In this document: one piece after another, positions 26,925 through 33,263 of the stretch
How the letters are laid out: every line of letters starts with the position of its first letter
Numbering within the stretch: position 1 is the first letter of the stretch
Assembly (NCBI RefSeq): GCF_001758225.1
Contig: NZ_MAST01000002.1
Location: 1 to 64,000 of the forward strand
From: Humibacillus sp. DSM 29435
GTDB lineage: Bacteria; Actinomycetota; Actinomycetes; Actinomycetales; Dermatophilaceae
Length of the DNA stretch: 64,000 nucleotides
Direction of reading: 5' to 3'
Notes under the pieces: model-generated
What the model was told of the DNA's origin: nothing
What the model saw: the letters and a program-made list of their open reading frames with translations, nothing else
Database searches by the model: none
Program-made: the position numbers and the translations under genes

Positions 26925-27587
26925 TCAGACGCTAGAGATCAGCGCGATCGCTTTCGCCATTGAAGCCCAGGAGGCAGGCCCCATAAGGCCAAATCCGAGA
27001 TCGCCCCATCCAGTCCCCCATGAGTTCTGGACCAGCACCACAATGTCGCCGGGGCTGAGCAAAGGGTCCGCGGAGGCGGATACCTGGGCTGCTCCGACAA
27101 CCACGACGGCATGAAACCCTAGAGCCTTTCCTCCCATCGTGAGGATCTCGGTTCCGAGCCGGTGAAACTCCGGCGTAGTCTGGATGATCGCGATCGGACA
27201 CGAGCCAGCGGCGAGCATGGGCAGAAGATCGCGTGGAGCGGGGGCCGCGCACGCCACCACCGCGGCCCTCGGCAGTGCTGAACCGAGTGGGCCCGGAGGG
27301 ATCGGCGAACACACGTCTTCGTGAATCGTCGGGTCGTATGGCCAGTCGGATTCGGCGGCGTGCCCATGGTCGCGAAGAGCGTCTCGGACCGAGCCCAGGT
27401 TACCGGCCCCTCCGGGCTCCCGCCGACTGAGATAATGGAGGTGCTCCGCGGATCTTGCTGACCCGCAAAGGGACGTATGCACCGTGGTCGACGCGCACGA
27501 CAAGCATGTAGGTCGGGGCCCTTGGTCCATGACAGGCTGCATTGTGCCTCGCATGTCATGGAGCCACGTGAGGTTCGTTGACGTCAT
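26925..27587 (-). CDS. Papain-like C1-family cysteine peptidase
   Basis: A 220-residue protein that is a bare catalytic domain with the papain layout: oxyanion Gln22 and catalytic Cys28 in DQGPRPTCLSC, His159 in ALGFHAVVVVG, and Asn188 in VQNSWGTGWGDLGFGLM. There is no signal peptide or membrane segment, so it acts in the cytoplasm unless secreted otherwise. There is no long propeptide: Cys28 is near the N-terminus, so inhibition must come from elsewhere. Its ATG overlaps the stop of the upstream ImmA gene (ATGA), and that upstream protein carries a chagasin-like domain, the known inhibitor class for C1 peptidases. Substrate unknown. Confidence 0.82.
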   Translation of the reverse strand: MTSTNLTWLHDMRGTMQPVMDQGPRPTCLSCASTTVHTSLCGSARSAEHLHYLSRREPGGAGNLGSVRDALRDHGHAAESDWPYDPTIHEDVCSPIPPGPLGSALPRAAVVACAAPAPRDLLPMLAAGSCPIAIIQTTPEFHRLGTEILTMGGKALGFHAVVVVGAAQVSASADPLLSPGDIVVLVQNSWGTGWGDLGFGLMGPASWASMAKAIALISSV

Positions 27588-28654
27588 GCGGTGATAGCCC
27601 TGTCAGCCCAGTCCTCGGGGGTCGGCGCGAAGAGACCTTGGCCAGCCAATTGTCGGGTCCGGACCTCGAGTTGTAGGTCGAACTGCGCCAAGATGGTGGA
27701 TGGTTCCCAAGGGCGAGCGAGATCCATCTGGACGCGAAACGATCCGGTGTCCGTCGGGACGAAGATGAGCTGCCGCCGGTCACTGGCACCTCCTGTGTCC
27801 AGTGACCAGACGTCATCCGATGGCGGTGCCGAGGGGACGTGTTCATCTTCGACCAGAACGATGTCAGGGTTCAGATCCGCCTGAGCTACGTTGTGGGGCC
27901 CGAACAGGCTGGGAATTGCGGGTGAGTTAACAAGCCAGCCTGCGCCGGTGCTGGTGTCCTCGGACAGGTCGACGCGAACCTCATCCCCGACCCGGCACAG
28001 GACGCTGAGACCTGAGTTCTCGGAGCCGAGGAGCCATACGTCTGCTCGGGCGTCAGTGACCCGGTCATCTCCACGCAGATCGTTCTTTGCGGCGAGCGCC
28101 CCCGCCTTTCGGAAGCGGCGGACGTCGTCGTACGACAAAATGCCCTTTCCGAACAAGCGCCAGAGGCCAGCGGAGAAGCTCACTCCGAGTTGGCGGCTGA
28201 AGAGATAGGCGTCGGCGGCGGCAACTCGCCTCGAGTCTTGGACGGCTGGCAGCGCCTTGATGGCCCGGTTCACGAGCGGCTCCGGCATCAGGAGGGTCGA
28301 CGCAAAAGCCTGCGCGGCCACCTCTTTGTCCGCGTTGGGATCGAAGCGCTCCACGTCGTGCTCATCGTCTGCGGACCCGTCGTGCCCCAGAACATGATGT
28401 GCGATCTCATGGGCGAGCGTGAAGCGTTGAAGGCTTTCGGGTACCCGGCTGTTGATCACAACGCCGCACACCTCCTCGGTTCGGACGTAAAAGCCGAGCA
28501 GGTGGTCGAGCGGTTGCATCATGAGGACGAGGCCAAGTTCACGCACGATCGCAAGCACGTCGACAGGTGCGTTGTAGGGGGTCTGTCGCCTCGAATGGAG
28601 CCGAGACGCCTCCATCGAGGCTCTCGACTGCAGGAGCTGGTTCTTGGTGGGCAC
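27584..28654 (-). CDS. ImmA/IrrE metallopeptidase fused to a chagasin-like (I42) domain
   Basis: A 356-residue two-domain protein. Residues about 25-185 are an ImmA/IrrE (COG2856) zinc peptidase: VCGVVINSR, then zinc motif HEIAHHVLGH at 82-91, third ligand region DKEVAAQAFASTLLMPEPLV, and the C-terminal helices. Residues about 215-335 form a beta-rich domain with the three chagasin loops: STGAGW (236-240), DTGGAS (286-291) and ARPWEPS (313-319), ending FDLQLEVR. Chagasin-family (I42) proteins inhibit papain-like peptidases. It follows the XRE gene by 6 bp and overlaps the C1 peptidase by 4 nt. The ImmA part probably cleaves the XRE repressor; the I42-like part may restrain the neighbouring C1 peptidase. 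The I42 call is from loop motifs only. Confidence 0.75.
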   Translation of the reverse strand: MPTKNQLLQSRASMEASRLHSRRQTPYNAPVDVLAIVRELGLVLMMQPLDHLLGFYVRTEEVCGVVINSRVPESLQRFTLAHEIAHHVLGHDGSADDEHDVERFDPNADKEVAAQAFASTLLMPEPLVNRAIKALPAVQDSRRVAAADAYLFSRQLGVSFSAGLWRLFGKGILSYDDVRRFRKAGALAAKNDLRGDDRVTDARADVWLLGSENSGLSVLCRVGDEVRVDLSEDTSTGAGWLVNSPAIPSLFGPHNVAQADLNPDIVLVEDEHVPSAPPSDDVWSLDTGGASDRRQLIFVPTDTGSFRVQMDLARPWEPSTILAQFDLQLEVRTRQLAGQGLFAPTPEDWADRAITA

Positions 28655-28660
28655 AGGTGA

Positions 28661-29026
28661 TCAGGAGCCTTTCTGCGTTGCTCCGACGCCGTTGAGGAAT
28701 TCGACGAATCGCAGGACTTGATCCTTGTCGTGATCTGACAGGGTTTTAGTGGCCCGGAACAGGCGTATCGCCTTCTCGTCCACGGCGGGGTCTGCGCCTA
28801 GCAGGCGGTCGGGTGTAGTGCCGTACAGGCGAGCAAGCTTGGCCAATTCGGCACTACTGACCTTTCGGCGACCTGTCTCGAAAGCGCTGACAGCAGCCCG
28901 TGGCAGGTCGAGCGCCGCGGCGACCTGATCTTGACTCATGCCCAAATAGTCACGCTCTTCGCGAAGTCGGAGTGCGAGGTCGCGCTCTATATCGTCTCGA
29001 TCTTCGGGGCTGTTGCGCTGATCCAT
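28661..29026 (-). CDS. XRE-family helix-turn-helix regulator
   Basis: A 121-residue protein. Residues about 16-75 are an HTH_XRE domain: LALRLREERDYLGMSQDQVAAALDLPRAAVSAFETGRRKVSSAELAKLARLYG. The C-terminal tail (DEKAIRLFRATKTLSDHDKDQVLRFVEFLNG) is helical and typical of regulators paired with ImmA peptidases. It is located between the AcpS-type gene (10 bp) and the ImmA gene (6 bp), so regulator and peptidase are made together, as in ICE/prophage induction switches. A likely target is the bidirectional promoter at 30646-30764. Confidence 0.88.
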   Translation of the reverse strand: MDQRNSPEDRDDIERDLALRLREERDYLGMSQDQVAAALDLPRAAVSAFETGRRKVSSAELAKLARLYGTTPDRLLGADPAVDEKAIRLFRATKTLSDHDKDQVLRFVEFLNGVGATQKGS

Positions 29027-29036
29027 GATTACCTTC

Positions 29037-29507
29037 TTATGTCGCTCGGATATTGTGTTCGACGACCGCGAGCGCTATCGCGATCGCCCAATTTCCCTCG
29101 TGACTCGCGGACACGCTCCAATCCCACTCCGACGCTCCGTCCGGCCAGATCGCACCTTCCGCCGGCCGGACCGAGATACGTCCATTCGGGGAAGTCGCAA
29201 CCGCAACGTCCAACGGACGGAGGCCCCTACGGAACCCGGTGCCAATTGCCTTCGCCACGGCTTCCTTGACGGCCCACCGCGTTGCGAGCCGGTCGACTCG
29301 GCCGCGCGTGTCTGCAACCTCTTGGGGCGAAAACAGGCGGTCAATGAAGACCGACCCGATGTCTGCATCGATCTGACGCTTGAGCATGGCGACGTCTACG
29401 AGATCAATGCCGATCTGGTGATGCGCGTCCTGGCGTAGTTCGGCTCTTGCGGCGCGGGCGAGGCGCACGATCGTGGTCTCTTCCGGGGTGGGCGCCGCGT
29501 CGCTCAT
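29037..29507 (-). CDS. AcpS-type 4'-phosphopantetheinyl transferase
   Basis: A 156-residue protein with the holo-ACP synthase signatures: metal-binding Asp in HQIGIDLVDVAMLK near residue 35, RLFSPQEVADTRGRVDRLATRWAVKEAVAKAIGTGF with the catalytic glutamate and lysine, and the C-terminal VSASHEGNWAIAIAL. The enzyme would move 4'-phosphopantetheine from CoA to a carrier-protein serine. ATG at 29507 overlaps the TS-like stop (ATGA). The gene set also encodes a small acyl-carrier-like protein, its natural substrate. A genome normally has one housekeeping acpS near fatty-acid genes, so a second copy here looks dedicated to this operon. Confidence 0.88.
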   Translation of the reverse strand: MSDAAPTPEETTIVRLARAARAELRQDAHHQIGIDLVDVAMLKRQIDADIGSVFIDRLFSPQEVADTRGRVDRLATRWAVKEAVAKAIGTGFRRGLRPLDVAVATSPNGRISVRPAEGAIWPDGASEWDWSVSASHEGNWAIAIALAVVEHNIRAT

Positions 29508-30388
29508 GCGATCCTCGGCAGTCCTAGGTCCGACCATGTTGAACCGAAAGGGCGGCTGTGCCACTCGAGGTCGCTGACGCCACCGGTCGAACCATTCGTT
29601 GCTGGGTTCAGCAAGGAGGCGACGGAACCGCGGGCACTCTGCTCGATCTCAGCGTGCGAAGCGACCATCATCAGTTCACCAACCTCCAGGTCCTTCTTGG
29701 ACTCCGCGACTAGGAAACGCATGAGACGCGCGAGGCCGACAAGGTTGCCGTAAGCGCGGGAGATGTATGTCTGATGGCGATAGAGCGCCACCATCGAAAG
29801 CCTCCCGTGCGAGAGGTTGAGGCTTAGATGGGACATGCACTGACCACCTCTGGCCGCGTTGTCATACCCTGCCACGTACGTCGATGCGGTTCCGACGGTC
29901 AGTGCCGCATCAGGCGCAGGGAGGCTCATCTCGACCTCATACCTATCGGCCCAGTTTGTGTCATCGTTGAGGTAGCCGACTAGGCGGCTCAGCTGATTGA
30001 CGTCATTGCCGCCATAGGTGGGATATCGGAGAAGGCGGCCAATGTAGGTCCCAGCCTTGGGTCCCCACGACGTGACGGTTCCGTTTCGGCCTGACTGGCC
30101 AGCCAGAGCGGCCGCATAGAAGTTCTCCGGCTTGCCCACCCGGTACAGCGAGATTGGAAAGATGGTGTTGGCCACGGTATGAACGCTCTTGTTGAAGTCG
30201 TTGGGCCGTTCAGTGCGGAGTTCCGCCACCTTGCGATCCAGCGCCTGCCGAACCCCAACGATCTCCTGGTCCGGATGTTCGACAGTGACCGAGAAGTTCA
30301 CTGCGCTTGAAGCGGCCTGGTTGTGCAATGCCTCGAGCGCGGCGAGCCACGCGCTCGAGATGTTCGAGCCTGAGACGTGCGTACTCAC
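29504..30388 (-). CDS. Divergent thymidylate-synthase-superfamily protein
   Basis: A 294-residue protein not obvious at first sight, but residues 181-250 align with the catalytic core of thymidylate synthase. GGQCMSHLSLNLSHGRLS (Cys184 as nucleophile) matches the PCHxxxQFxVxDGKLS region. ALYRHQTYISRAYGNLVGLARLMRFL matches YQRSxDxFLGxPFNIAxYALLxHML, with Arg204 and Asn215 at the phosphate- and uracil-reading positions. DLEVGELMMVASHAEI matches DLEVGDFxxxxGDxHxY. The N-terminal part (GTYIGRLLRYP, NQLSRLVGYLND) corresponds to the WGxYGxxLR region. Asn rather than Asp at the N177 position suggests dUMP rather than dCMP. It could methylate or hydroxymethylate a pyrimidine nucleotide. It overlaps both neighbours by 4 nt. 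Confidence 0.7.
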   Translation of the reverse strand: MSTHVSGSNISSAWLAALEALHNQAASSAVNFSVTVEHPDQEIVGVRQALDRKVAELRTERPNDFNKSVHTVANTIFPISLYRVGKPENFYAAALAGQSGRNGTVTSWGPKAGTYIGRLLRYPTYGGNDVNQLSRLVGYLNDDTNWADRYEVEMSLPAPDAALTVGTASTYVAGYDNAARGGQCMSHLSLNLSHGRLSMVALYRHQTYISRAYGNLVGLARLMRFLVAESKKDLEVGELMMVASHAEIEQSARGSVASLLNPATNGSTGGVSDLEWHSRPFGSTWSDLGLPRIA

Positions 30389-30645
30389 TGGACCCCTTTC
30401 AACGCTACATCAATCAATGAGCCAAGGCTCGCGTATTGCTCAGGCCCGAGGTCGGCCGGCGCAGGTAGGTTGATGCCCGTCAAGATCTCGATCTTGACGA
30501 GAAGGAACTCAGCCGTCTTGCTGTCGAGCTCGAGCATGTACTCGTCAGGATTCGCGGCTAGTGCCTCATCCACCTCGTCGCCAAGCGCGAGATCACCACG
30601 AAGCGTCTCAAGCATCCACCCTCTGATGTCGTCTCGATCTGGCAT
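30385..30645 (-). CDS. Small acyl-carrier-protein-like protein
   Basis: An 86-residue acidic, helical protein. The stretch YMLELDSKTAEFLLVKIEIL resembles the carrier-protein signature with the phosphopantetheine-accepting serine (DS; Ser42 here), followed by TGINLPAPADLGPEQYASLGSLIDVAL, matching ACP helix 3 and 4. The usual DSL is DSK. ATG at 30645 is chosen because GAGGGGG stands about 5 nt upstream; a GTG at 30651 is weaker. It is the first gene of the six-gene operon, overlapping the TS-like gene (ATGA), and a phosphopantetheinyl transferase follows two genes later, which supports the assignment. What it carries is unknown. Confidence 0.65.
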   Translation of the reverse strand: MPDRDDIRGWMLETLRGDLALGDEVDEALAANPDEYMLELDSKTAEFLLVKIEILTGINLPAPADLGPEQYASLGSLIDVALKGVQ

Positions 30646-30693
30646 CTCCACCCCCTCGATGTCTCAACTTCCGTCAGGGTATCGCAAACCTGC

Positions 30694-30721
30694 TTGAAAA
30701 TCGAGCATCGTGTCGTAGGCT
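30694..30721 (+). promoter_or_regulatory. Candidate promoter for the MazG-kinase gene in the divergent region
   Basis: TTGAAA (30694-30699), 16-bp spacer, TAGGCT (30716-30721), a fair match to -35 and actinobacterial TAnnnT -10 boxes. It lies 44 bp before the ATG at 30765, which has AAGGG just upstream. The 119-bp gap between the ACP-like and MazG-kinase genes must drive both transcripts and is the obvious target for the XRE regulator. Confidence 0.4.
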
Positions 30722-30764
30722 GCACGATCACGACCCGATCCGCCACCGAAAGTGCAAGGGACCT

Positions 30765-32267
30765 ATGGACATCAACGACTACCAAGAGAGTGCACGGGCG
30801 AGCGACGTCCTGCCCGCTGACGATCTCGCGCTGCCGATGCTCGGCCTTGCCGGCGAGGTCGGCAATCTCGCCGCCGAGTTGAAGAAGCGGGAGCGCGATC
30901 AAGCTGGCTACGTCGGGTTCCAAGCCGAGGTCCGGGAAGAGCTCGGCGACCTCATTTGGTATGCGGCCGCGCTGGCTCGACGGTGCGATGTCGAGTTGGG
31001 ACAGGTGCTGTCCGAGAACCTAGCGAAGGTCCGGGAGCGCTACGACCGTTTCCCGAGCCCACCGCCGCACCGGCTGTTCGACGAAGCATTCGCGACACAT
31101 GAGCAACTGCCGCGGCAGGTTTATATCACGTTCGTCGAAACAACCGAGTCGGACCGCGGTGCCGAACCGGTTCCTGTCGTACGGATCTACCGCGGCGGCA
31201 GCAAGATCGGTGACCCGCTAGACGACAACAGCGACGACAACGACGACTATCGCTTCCACGACGTCATCCATCTCGCTCACATGGCGGTACTCGGTTGGTC
31301 GCCAACCCTTCGGGGATTGCTTGATGTCAAGCGCCGAAGCACGCCCGATTTGAATCGAGTCGAGGATGGAGGTCGCGCGGTTGTCATTGAGGAGGGCCTT
31401 GCGGCCTACGTCTTCTCCGAAGCGGCGGAACACACCTTCTTCGCGTCGAGCGAACGCGTTCCTGCCGACATCATCAAGGCATGCCGCCGAATGACTGGAC
31501 ACCTTGAGGTATCGCAGCGCACCGCGGCGGACTGGGAGTACGCAATCCTGGCGGGCTACGAAATGTTCCGGTCTTTGCGGCAGCATCGAGGGGGAACGGT
31601 TCATGCCGACCTCCTGTCGCGAACACTGACGTTCACGCCGCCGTCACCTAACGTGGCCGTGGAGCGGCGGACTATCGCACTGAGGTCTGGCGCCGTCGTA
31701 GTCTTTGAGGGTCTCGACAAGGCCGGGAAGAGCACGCAACTCGACCTTCTGCAGGGCGCTGTCGATCCAACTTCCGCCACCTTCGCCCATATGCCGTCTG
31801 GCTTTGCGGAGTTCACCCGCAGGCTTTATCGGGTGCTTGAGACTAACCCCCCGACGACGGCGCTAGCCCGCCAGCTCGCACATCTATCCTGTCACAGCGA
31901 ATCGATCGACGACCTCATCGGCGCCTCAGAGCGCGGCGCACTCGTACTCGATCGCTGGTGGTGGTCCACGCTCGCATACGGGTGGTACGCGAACCCGGAT
32001 TCACTTGGGATCTCGCAAGAGGACTTCACGGCGCTCATTGACCAGATCTGGCAGCGAGTCGAGGCAGACGTGGTCTTCCTTTTCTTAACCGCGTACGCTG
32101 GTGACGAAAATAACGCACCCGGCGTGAAGGAGGGGTACGAGGCCATAGCTGCTGCGTCGGAGGTAGGCCAAGTGGTTTTTGTGCCTGCGATGTCGGAAGA
32201 GGAGACGCACAATTTCGTGGTCGCCGAGCTGGCCCGACGCGGATTGCTTATATTAGAAGAGGGCTAG
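30765..32267 (+). CDS. MazG-like pyrophosphohydrolase fused to a thymidylate-kinase-like P-loop domain
   Basis: A 500-residue protein of three parts. Residues 1-100 form an all-alpha NTP-pyrophosphohydrolase domain: LGLAGEVGNLAAELKK and VREELGDLIWYAAALA supply the metal-binding acids (E31, E38, E59, D62). Residues about 105-295 are a domain found attached to some MazG proteins (YRFHDVIHLAHMAVLGWSP, EDGGRAVVIEEGLAAYVF) of unknown function. Residues about 308-500 are a thymidylate-kinase-like P-loop enzyme: VVVFEGLDKAGKSTQLDLL (316-324), then LVLDRWWWSTLAYGW (DR motif). Joining an NTP-removing and a dNMP-phosphorylating activity suggests reshaping of a pyrimidine nucleotide pool. Its 3' end overlaps the convergent next gene by 15 bp. 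Confidence 0.82.
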   Translation: MDINDYQESARASDVLPADDLALPMLGLAGEVGNLAAELKKRERDQAGYVGFQAEVREELGDLIWYAAALARRCDVELGQVLSENLAKVRERYDRFPSPPPHRLFDEAFATHEQLPRQVYITFVETTESDRGAEPVPVVRIYRGGSKIGDPLDDNSDDNDDYRFHDVIHLAHMAVLGWSPTLRGLLDVKRRSTPDLNRVEDGGRAVVIEEGLAAYVFSEAAEHTFFASSERVPADIIKACRRMTGHLEVSQRTAADWEYAILAGYEMFRSLRQHRGGTVHADLLSRTLTFTPPSPNVAVERRTIALRSGAVVVFEGLDKAGKSTQLDLLQGAVDPTSATFAHMPSGFAEFTRRLYRVLETNPPTTALARQLAHLSCHSESIDDLIGASERGALVLDRWWWSTLAYGWYANPDSLGISQEDFTALIDQIWQRVEADVVFLFLTAYAGDENNAPGVKEGYEAIAAASEVGQVVFVPAMSEEETHNFVVAELARRGLLILEEG

Positions 32268-33263
32268 TGCGGGAGTCTTTGGCGCGATGGTCGGATGAAG
32301 GTCCCATTTGGGCGGGAAGTGAGGCAGTTCCAACGGCCCCTTGGCCAAGAACTGCTGTTTGATCCGCATCCGGTTGCCGACGCCTCGATGTGTCGGGTGG
32401 GCGACTCGTGCGTACTTGTCGGTCTCGCAGAACAAGTTTTGGCAGTCTATGAGTTTCAATCGTCGGCCGAACAAGTCTCGGAAGTCCACTCCATAATGGC
32501 TGATCTGCTCTTCCTGTGTGTCAACCATCCAGCGAATCAGATCTGCCGCCGGGAGCCCACGCGAATCTGGGAGGCACTTCGCGAGGCCGCTCACGGCACC
32601 TGGCCCTGCAACGACGAAATCGTCCTCGTCAAAGTCGATGATCGGGGAGTAGTTCAGATCGATGGTCAACTGGTAGGCCAAGAATGGCCCGAGCGACGGG
32701 TAGGACGCGATGAGCTCGAAGACCTGCCTAAGGCTGCTGGCCTCGGTCAGGCGCTTTGGGAGGTGGCTGTTCATCATGTGCTCTGCAAGCGCAAGGTGAT
32801 TGCGGTGCTTTCTCGCATGCCCAAACGGTGGCGGAGGCACGATGTATGCGGCCGAGTAGATGGTTCTGCCAGTCGCCATCTGCTTGTCGAGGATCTCGCC
32901 GTAGGTTGTCGGATCGAAGTCGTTCCAAGTGACCGGGCCCCTTGACTGCTCCAGGACTGACCATGTCTCAGGCTTGTTGAAGAACCTGAAGAGTAGCGTC
33001 CGAAGCACGACGTCCTCTGGGGTCTGAGGGCCCTCGTAGATGACCCGGATGAGGTCCTGGGAAACGCGATCGGCGGCGCGGTAGGCATTGGTGAAGCGGT
33101 ACTGCGCGACGATCGGGTCGGTTGTCCACGGCGCCGGATCGCCTGACAGGCGTGCGTGATAAACGTGCTGCCGTTCGGCGGCGAGCCTCCAGTAGCTCTC
33201 AAGCACTTCTGAGGCGATGATCCGCCGCCCCGCCACTCTCCCTGACCACATCCCACCAATCAT
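32253..33263 (-). CDS. 5-hmdU DNA kinase helical-domain-like protein (DNA base hypermodification family)
   Basis: A 336-residue protein matching the family annotated as 5-hmdU DNA kinase helical domain / nucleotide kinase domain-containing. Signatures are VLESYWRLAAERQHVYHARLSG, YRFTNAYRAADRVSQDLIRVIY, LRTLLFRFFNKPETW, and YPSLGPFLAYQLTIDLNYSP followed by DFVVAGPGAVSGL. The last part resembles helix-hairpin-helix glycosylase-like DNA-binding elements. No Walker A is present, so it is not by itself a classical P-loop kinase; the kinase-like domain lies in the neighbouring fusion protein. Homologues occur with phage and bacterial thymidine-hypermodification genes. It converges with and overlaps the MazG-kinase gene, sharing the same island. 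Function in vivo unproven. Confidence 0.7.
   Translation of the reverse strand: MIGGMWSGRVAGRRIIASEVLESYWRLAAERQHVYHARLSGDPAPWTTDPIVAQYRFTNAYRAADRVSQDLIRVIYEGPQTPEDVVLRTLLFRFFNKPETWSVLEQSRGPVTWNDFDPTTYGEILDKQMATGRTIYSAAYIVPPPPFGHARKHRNHLALAEHMMNSHLPKRLTEASSLRQVFELIASYPSLGPFLAYQLTIDLNYSPIIDFDEDDFVVAGPGAVSGLAKCLPDSRGLPAADLIRWMVDTQEEQISHYGVDFRDLFGRRLKLIDCQNLFCETDKYARVAHPTHRGVGNRMRIKQQFLAKGPLELPHFPPKWDLHPTIAPKTPALALF

Follow-up and report, generated by a model that had tools for sequence, protein, structure and literature searches.

We analyzed an island of genes in a 64,000-nucleotide stretch of the genome of Humibacillus sp. DSM 29435 (contig NZ_MAST01000002.1, positions 1 to 64,000; the window). 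It encodes a divergent relative of thymidylate synthase (TS), which we call TSa, and a carrier protein resembling acyl carrier proteins (ACPs), together with an AcpS-type phosphopantetheinyl transferase, a MazG-kinase fusion, a repressor, two proteases, and a PF18723 protein, which we call HEL. In our best explanation, to which we give slightly less than an even chance, the island is horizontally acquired, inducible, and probably anti-phage, and acts on uracil and thymine nucleotides and on DNA. We favor this explanation, which is built on sequence comparison, because TSa belongs to a cohesive module, HEL has alternative partners of defense type in other loci, the island regulators match capP and capH, and HEL exchanges with a uracil-DNA glycosylase (UDG)-like protein. 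Further grounds are the domains validated in the DefensePredictor study, the catalytic residues kept in TSa, IrrE, the papain-like protease, and AcpS, and the mobile setting.

The original prediction had described five proteins between positions 29037 and 33263 as one operon-like pathway for pyrimidine or DNA-base hypermodification. All five are present. The carrier gene (30385..30651, minus strand), recognized by an LDS motif, its gene position, and its AcpS neighbor, overlaps the TSa gene (29504..30388, minus) by 4 nt. AcpS (29037..29564, minus) follows TSa on the same strand; its start codon is uncertain, and its longest open reading frame (ORF) overlaps the TSa gene. As predicted, the transferase (PF01648, E 7.5e-15, 55.4 bits against a cut-off of 25) and the fusion of MazG, MazG_C, and a thymidylate-kinase-like domain (30765..32267, plus; PF03819, E 2.2e-6; PF18722, E 3.1e-72; PF02223, E 5.7e-7) carry clear Pfam domains. 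The fifth protein, HEL (32253..33263, minus), matches PF18723 with E 4.2e-109 (364.7 bits against 25). The single-operon arrangement did not survive: the MazG-kinase gene is divergent from the carrier genes, and the HEL gene is convergent on it. Three further genes on the strand of the carrier, TSa, and AcpS extend the island to 26925. They encode an XRE/HTH repressor (28661..29026; PF13560, E 6e-14), an ImmA/IrrE-type metalloprotease with a C-terminal chagasin-type (I42) inhibitor domain (27584..28654; PF06114, E 9.2e-13; PF09394, E 1.2e-7), and a papain-like (C1) cysteine protease (26925..27587; PF00112, E 4.1e-4, 20.9 bits against a cut-off of 20.7), and the last two genes overlap by 4 nt. 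GC content, taken in 2-kb steps, is 0.60-0.65 between 26 and 34 kb and 0.64 up to 36 kb, versus about 0.65-0.70 elsewhere, which suggests acquired DNA.

Related loci were collected through HEL. Of 426 pattern matches in genome_contigs, 149 proved to be relatives in a search with an alignment of five PF18723 proteins, and our set of 82 loci consists of the window, locus L007, and the best 80 of these 149, so that HEL is constant across the set by construction. By record title, the HEL loci come from Actinomycetota, Pseudomonadota, Planctomycetota, Verrucomicrobiota, Armatimonadota, Myxococcota, Bacteroidota, and other groups. We ran gene profiles made from the window genes and from L013, a sister island, over the 82 loci and counted a partner if it lay within 8.5 kb of HEL. 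The papain gene of L135 and the TSa gene of L104 each fall into two ORFs, which we did not join.

TSa was found in 59 of the 82 loci and was absent from 23. IrrE (56/59 TSa loci versus 0/23 others) and XRE (56/59 versus 2/23) accompanied it closely. The carrier, whose profiles derive from gene clusters near TSa, was detected by profile in 51 of the 59 TSa loci, or 56 with those of L049, L082, L067, L069, and L073 added by eye, versus none of the 23 other loci, which were read by profile only. AcpS (32/59 versus 0/23) and the papain-like protease (27/59 versus 0/23) were likewise confined to TSa loci, and MazG was present in 39/59 versus 2/23. Counts for the remaining genes were 23/59 versus 13/23 for the kinase, 12/59 versus 12/23 for TSb, the TS of sister islands, and 6/59 versus 3/23 for a dCTP-deaminase-like protein. 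Independent pairs on the HEL tree linked TSa to IrrE (median p 0.008), the carrier (0.016), and XRE (0.016), with zero pairs in the opposite direction; TSa-MazG (0.25), TSa-TSb (1), and TSa-kinase (1) were not significant. From the co-occurrence and the independent pairs, we conclude that carrier, TSa, XRE, and IrrE form one module, to which AcpS and the papain-like protease belong in part. Since related arrangements recur in distant genomes, the island is not a chance assembly. The expectation that the predicted genes would be found together elsewhere was thus borne out, and carrier and TSa do accompany each other, but the five genes are not the whole unit, which also includes XRE, IrrE, and often papain. 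In the MazG-kinase fusion, polar residues are conserved across the aligned rows, and MazG and kinase are separate genes in L016-L018, L020, and L021.

HEL itself changes partners. TIR genes were found in 2/59 TSa loci versus 16/23 loci lacking TSa. Parsimony on the best quick HEL tree requires at least five switches between TSa and TIR partners (73 labeled loci) and at least eight among the supply genes TSb, MazG, and dCTP-deaminase-like (66 labeled loci). Six of the 82 loci have no recognized gene in either slot, four TSa loci have none in the supply slot, and some loci end at contig ends. The alternative partners include a ThsB-like TIR protein (PF08937, E 6.8e-23), SLATT_3 (E 4e-38), SLATT_1 (E 4.7e-33), TPR-S (E 1.6e-12), and Nmad2 (E 2.4e-73). 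The TIR, SLATT, TPR-S, and Nmad2 families are tied, in part by name, to anti-phage or conflict systems. In L022-L029, L031, L033, and L034, HEL, TS, and kinase genes lie divergent from genes for a zinc-ribbon protein, a ThsB-like TIR protein, and SLATT or TPR-S proteins, a Thoeris-like layout with thymine enzymes.

SLATT, TPR-S, and ThsB-like TIR proteins are families of nucleotide-signal systems. The exchange of HEL partners, these families among them, would suit a scheme in which infection leads to a modified deoxynucleotide second messenger that is read by an output partner, namely TIR, SLATT, or TPR-S and, in this island, the TSa/carrier/protease set. We consider such signaling improbable though credible, as HEL resembles DNA-acting enzymes, so that DNA fits better than a free nucleotide, and domain and PADLOC searches of the window recognized no ligand-sensing output domain in the TSa set.

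HEL resembles enzymes that act on DNA. In VIA comparisons of its predicted structure (predicted local distance difference test, pLDDT, 94.5), the top match was the phage 5-PmdU glycinyltransferase PUGT (8z2n; Z 10.6 over 220 residues, root-mean-square deviation [rmsd] 3.8). The queuosine-salvage protein DUF2419 came within one Z unit (Z 10.1, rmsd 6.0), and helix-hairpin-helix (HhH) DNA glycosylases reached Z 8-9. These matches and a motif read by eye point to a probable HhH-type, glycosylase-like fold. Profile searches of PDB sequences gave no significant match for the HEL alignment (best E 0.21) or the TSa alignment (best E 0.11, with thymidylate synthases only from E 0.68), so the folds of both proteins were taken from predicted structures.

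HEL has many relatives in phages, matching 471 of 50,697 phage records, some annotated aGPT-Pplase1. It is 25.5% identical to its homologue in phage AN14, 23.5% to that in Guerrero, and 37.9% to that in LuckyBarnes. Twenty-two residues are shared by at least 83 of 85 rows and by each of three aligned phage proteins; together with the profile match, they place HEL in the PF18723/aGPT-Pplase1 family. As regards a role as 5-hmdU DNA kinase, a Pfam search found no P-loop domain in the window HEL; L069, L084, and L087 encode HEL as a fusion with a TMK-like domain. In AN14, the gene for the HEL homologue, a protein without a PDB sequence match, is flanked by a kinase-annotated gene and the gene for an Nmad5 protein, with a TS nearby. 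Two equivalences with phage proteins were not upheld. HEL was not taken to be PUGT, since PUGT pairs by sequence with a clade-3 protein of AN14 (E 1.6e-91) and not with the AN14 relative of HEL, and equating the island kinase with the AN14 kinase found no support (E 0.046). Brevibacterium phage LuckyBarnes (L103, 1822-5837) encodes a TS, two glycosyltransferases, and a stand-alone HEL consecutively, a candidate thymine-glycosylation cluster.

On plasmids, the HEL slot can be occupied by another protein. TSa of L030 matched 24 of 72,556 plasmid records, 15 of which were typed as conjugative. We fetched 10 of these loci, the first of them picked for a visible UDG gene, so that the following proportion is not a frequency: eight have a gene annotated uracil-DNA glycosylase in the place of HEL, and two, from Nostoc and the archaeon Haloarcula, have HEL. 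The eight loci (L133, L134, L135, L138, L150, L151, L152, and L153) are on plasmids of Alpha- and Betaproteobacteria. All eight have matches to carrier, XRE, IrrE, and papain, seven to MazG, and four to the dCTP-deaminase-like protein. The UDG-like family is well conserved; one member gave no PDB sequence match at E 0.01. From these comparisons, a UDG-like protein can apparently fill the slot of HEL. The Haloarcula marina plasmid locus (L136) contains kinase, HEL, phosphopantetheinyl transferase, a carrier match, XRE, IrrE, papain, and TSa. Genes for relaxase, TraG, integrase, resolvase, and transposase lie close to some loci. Shedu nuclease, caspase-family, and pYEATS genes stand beside some plasmid copies (L153, 1223-2383; L104, 680-3702; L152, 191-2113).

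Among the genomes surveyed, the island is rare and scattered, as judged from HEL in 3 of 297 genomes drawn from the order and a TSa match in 6 of 396 genomes of the phylum, the host genome being included in both counts. The three strong TSa genomes of the phylum survey other than the host all carry HEL. In the same survey, two weak TSa matches, L148 and L149, were dismissed as TSa loci, as the TSb profile fits them first and the module was not found. A TSa query of 147 near genomes matched four, again including the host. Genomes G049 and G075 contain related islands with different gene orders, that of G075 with no recognized AcpS, kinase, or papain gene; a weak match in G109 (L005, L008) sits among housekeeping genes and was discarded. 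A blastn search of E. coli genomes with the L056 version found no match.

The interchange of UDG-like and HEL genes, and the MazG and dCTP-deaminase-like partners, would also suit a narrower defense, one specialized on phages whose DNA contains uracil or hydroxymethyluracil. The UDG-like protein or HEL would recognize such DNA, and MazG, deaminase, or kinase would disturb the modified nucleotide pool. Phages with DNA of this type are a minority, and sister systems would make, not remove, hydroxymethyldeoxyuridine (hmdU)-type nucleotides if TSb is a hydroxymethylase; we therefore regard so narrow a target as a long shot.

Inducible use, as our preferred explanation has it, is suggested by the regulatory genes. 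IrrE matches the PADLOC capP model (E 1.6e-19) and XRE matches capH (E 3.7e-14). In two reports, CapP is described as activated by single-stranded DNA and as cleaving CapH, and immune operons as being under the control of CapH and CapP (PMC13373217, PMC10904395). The HExxH residues of IrrE (His82, Glu83, and His86) are present in 56 of 56 aligned rows. A putative divergent promoter region (30652..30764) separates the carrier and MazG genes. It contains an imperfect inverted repeat at 30707-30739, with 10-bp arms and one mismatch (chance expectation not estimated), which is a weak candidate for a repressor site. A search for an operator common to this region and the sequence upstream of HEL matched only words of 8-10 bp.

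The papain-like protease retains Cys28, His159, and Asn188 in 27 of 27 aligned rows. A profile of the I42-type domain was matched in 20 of 27 papain-positive loci versus none of 29 loci with IrrE and no papain gene, a comparison biased towards the former because the profile was made from 12 papain-positive loci with a motif that we wrote. Evidence free of this profile comes from the Pfam match in the window IrrE and from the record name "protease inhibitor I42 family" at L153. We infer from these sequences that the chagasin-type tail of IrrE may restrain the neighboring papain-like protease. The occurrence of the inhibitor domain only beside a papain-like gene is possibly a caged-protease switch in its own right.

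TSa has no Pfam match up to E 1. The prediction that it has a TS fold was nonetheless upheld. The NCBIfam thymidylate synthase model TIGR03283 matches the window protein (E 6.4e-6, 25.8 bits against a cut-off of 174.55) and all 53 of 53 aligned TSa members, the window included, always below the cut-off. An AlphaFold model of TSa (pLDDT 82.7) matched TS structures with a Foldseek E of 3.5e-9 (probability 1.00) and VIA Z scores of 15.6-17.4 among the 50 matches listed, and its fold is close to that of MilA, among others. By the fold of this model, TSa belongs to the thymidylate synthase superfamily. All 59 of 59 aligned rows retain Cys184 and Asn215, as do 75 of 76 in a wider alignment, in which the remaining row has a gap; by analogy with TS, we take the Cys to be the nucleophile and the Asn to bind uracil. 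The RSxD...PFN signature of ThyA-type enzymes is absent from TSa: Arg is found in 60 of 76 rows and is followed by variable residues, and GN replaces FN. On this basis, we rejected TSa as a true thymidylate synthase, and the host genome has a separate ThyA (E 1.5e-121) that bears the signature. Back-translated TSa peptides found no match in genome_contigs or viral_contigs, and TSa of the window and of L030 matched 0 of 50,697 phage records (E 1e-3).

TSb, which is not in the window island, is a different protein. Its closest PDB match, with L013 as query, is the CMP hydroxymethylase MilA (1.9e-24). The same protein is 38.6% identical to the LuckyBarnes TS, and TSb is homologous to the TS of phage clusters of hypermodification type. 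Large proteins near the island in other loci have a weak TS-like match in their C-terminal half (E 7.5e-10 to 9.5e-6; L032, 7468-9648; L042, 8229-10409; L050, 7403-9790; L063, 4799-6952; L068, 4796-6949); the L042 protein is a metallophosphoesterase.

The window carrier protein has no Pfam match and so gives none to PF00550. Its relative in L007 matches PF00550 below threshold (E 0.0036, 18.0 bits against 20.8). Identification of the window protein as ACP-like rests on the LDS motif, relatives at the same gene position, the AcpS neighbor, and this L007 match. Carrier-like proteins are highly divergent among loci, and most have a D/E-S motif; in L015, L016, L018, L020, L021, L030, L067, and L073, the Ser is preceded by T, S, or P. 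AcpS scores above the PF01648 cut-off, as expected of a phosphopantetheinyl transferase, and keeps G52, D54, E82, K100, E101, and K105 in 32 of 32 aligned rows. The host genome contains two other PF01648 genes. The predicted delivery of an activated acyl or aminoacyl group by the carrier found no support: no carrier-loading enzyme was recognized by eye among the 45 recurring clusters listed, most of them without a domain search.

A TS fold close to MilA next to a carrier and a phosphopantetheinyl transferase could also belong to a pathway for a nucleoside natural product. We think this very unlikely, because no export, resistance, or tailoring genes were recognized by eye among the recurring clusters listed, and the partners and mobility are of defense type.

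The hypermodification pathway of the original prediction fared better. Under it, thymine in host DNA would be modified at C5 to serve as a self or epigenetic mark, with the carrier supplying the group. The parts do resemble those of phage thymine hypermodification: phage aGPT-Pplase1 is a homologue of HEL, whose closest structural match is the 5-PmdU glycinyltransferase, sister TSb resembles the phage-cluster TS and the MilA hydroxymethylase, TS, glycosyltransferase, and HEL genes adjoin in LuckyBarnes, and 7 of the 82 loci have a C5-cytosine-methylase-type gene cluster nearby. The function is another matter. A UDG-like gene can replace HEL, the repressor/protease switch hints at induction and not at constitutive use, the window island has no TSb, and neither a carrier-loading enzyme nor a dedicated restriction partner was recognized by eye among the recurring clusters listed. 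Hypermodification is thus partly supported, for the parts and not for the function, and as an account of the whole island, it seems to us unlikely, if worth serious consideration. The TIR and SLATT proteins of sister loci, the CapP/CapH-like regulators, and the UDG-like replacement appear easier to reconcile with an anti-phage role than with a plain DNA mark.

How might an inducible anti-phage island of this kind work? By similarity to CapH/CapP, the XRE repressor and IrrE protease would keep expression down until the DNA is damaged or infection occurs. The supply enzyme, MazG-MazG_C-kinase here and TS plus kinase or a dCTP-deaminase-like protein elsewhere, would then shift the pool of deoxyuridine- and thymidine-type nucleotides. 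HEL, or the UDG-like protein in sister systems, might flip uracil or C5-modified uracil in DNA and act on it. A dUMP-type nucleotide would be the target of the TSa Cys, with the C5 substituent given or received by the phosphopantetheine carrier. The papain-like protease, where present, could be the effector, held by the chagasin domain of IrrE and freed on activation. A bolder version, which we regard as distinctly doubtful, makes TSa a new reaction type of the TS family. An exocyclic-methylene intermediate would form on a dUMP-type nucleotide, the carrier phosphopantetheine thiol would attack it or leave, and the carrier-bound nucleotide would report phage-induced changes in uracil or thymine metabolism and unleash the chagasin-caged papain-like protease.

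Several observations weigh against our explanation or parts of it. The direction and order of the steps are guesses. The best Foldseek match of HEL is weak (E 0.044), and mostly helical models reach VIA Z scores of about 13 without kinship, which makes 10.6 for HEL middling. Judging by the aligned sequences, the 22 residues that HEL and the phage proteins have in common could mean a modifying rather than an excising chemistry. The Asp of the D-S motif is missing from some carrier-like proteins. With a papain gene in only 27 of 59 TSa loci, the protease is not a universal effector, and on the HEL tree, independent pairs that bear on its link with I42 are too few for a test. Finally, we compared the neighborhood of the island with control DNA, using 125 of 162 proteins from the flanks of 46 TSa loci with GC content of at least 0.60 and 124 of 202 proteins from 20 segments that we chose, two of whose source genomes carry the island elsewhere. 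At E<=1e-15, 37 PADLOC models, which are redundant, were matched among the 125 flank proteins and 11 among the 124 controls, and no PADLOC family, among the matches listed, hit more than two flank or three control proteins.

If our explanation is true, thymine hypermodification, carrier-protein biochemistry, and bacterial immunity are joined in one mobile island shared between phyla and even domains. Points of interest are a family of TS fold that has its own carrier protein, a protease switch that incorporates an inhibitor for the adjacent protease, and a slot filled alternatively by a relative of phage DNA-modifying enzymes or by a UDG-like protein. As the island is small and clonable, experiments could address why bacteria retain relatives of phage hypermodification genes. 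The carrier/TSa/IrrE-chagasin/papain module is without a description in the literature searched, with most subscription journals outside its scope, and a search for carrier or phosphopantetheine joined with TS, MazG, or defense returned no paper on the module by title or abstract start.

Several known systems have features in common with the island. No complete PADLOC-DB 2.0.0 defense system was found in the window island. Its PADLOC matches are of regulator or protease type only (capH, capP, RmrA, PDC-M69, control proteins, and HTH), except that the kinase domain weakly matches PDC-M51B. In the text of the DefensePredictor report of 2026, 42 anti-phage units were validated, with 5-hydroxymethyluracil kinase and thymidylate synthase among the newly validated domains; the legend of its Figure 3 lists TS, dNMPk, 5hmdUk, and NMAD, and section 8 with the legend of Figure 6F gives aGPT-Pplase, MazG, MazG-C, dUTPase, NMAD, UDG, and HTH as predicted and unvalidated (PMC13092281). 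Part of the present island may be covered by that work, as judged from the domains named in its text and legends. A search of its main text for "acyl carrier", which did not extend to AcpS, IrrE, chagasin, and papain, gave 0 occurrences (PMC13092281).

Phage clusters of thymidine-hypermodification type, those of the M6-like phages AN14 and PAC9, of the Kuttervirus Guerrero, and of LuckyBarnes, share a HEL homologue with the island, close to kinase-annotated, Nmad5, and TS genes in AN14 and PAC9. They differ in that the island TSa was not found in phage records and that the kinases of the island and of AN14 show no clear homology. PUGT (8z2n/8z2m), although the top structural match of HEL, groups by sequence with the clade-3 protein of AN14. 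Thoeris and other TIR/SLATT-type systems resemble the sister HEL loci with ThsB-like TIR and SLATT proteins, whereas domain, PADLOC, and locus-profile searches found no TIR, SLATT, or Ths protein in the window island, which is thus not a Thoeris system. The likeness to CapH/CapP lies in the island itself, where, at the level of sequence, the XRE repressor and HExxH protease match both models as a pair; the island protease differs in bearing, in papain-positive loci, a chagasin-type domain.

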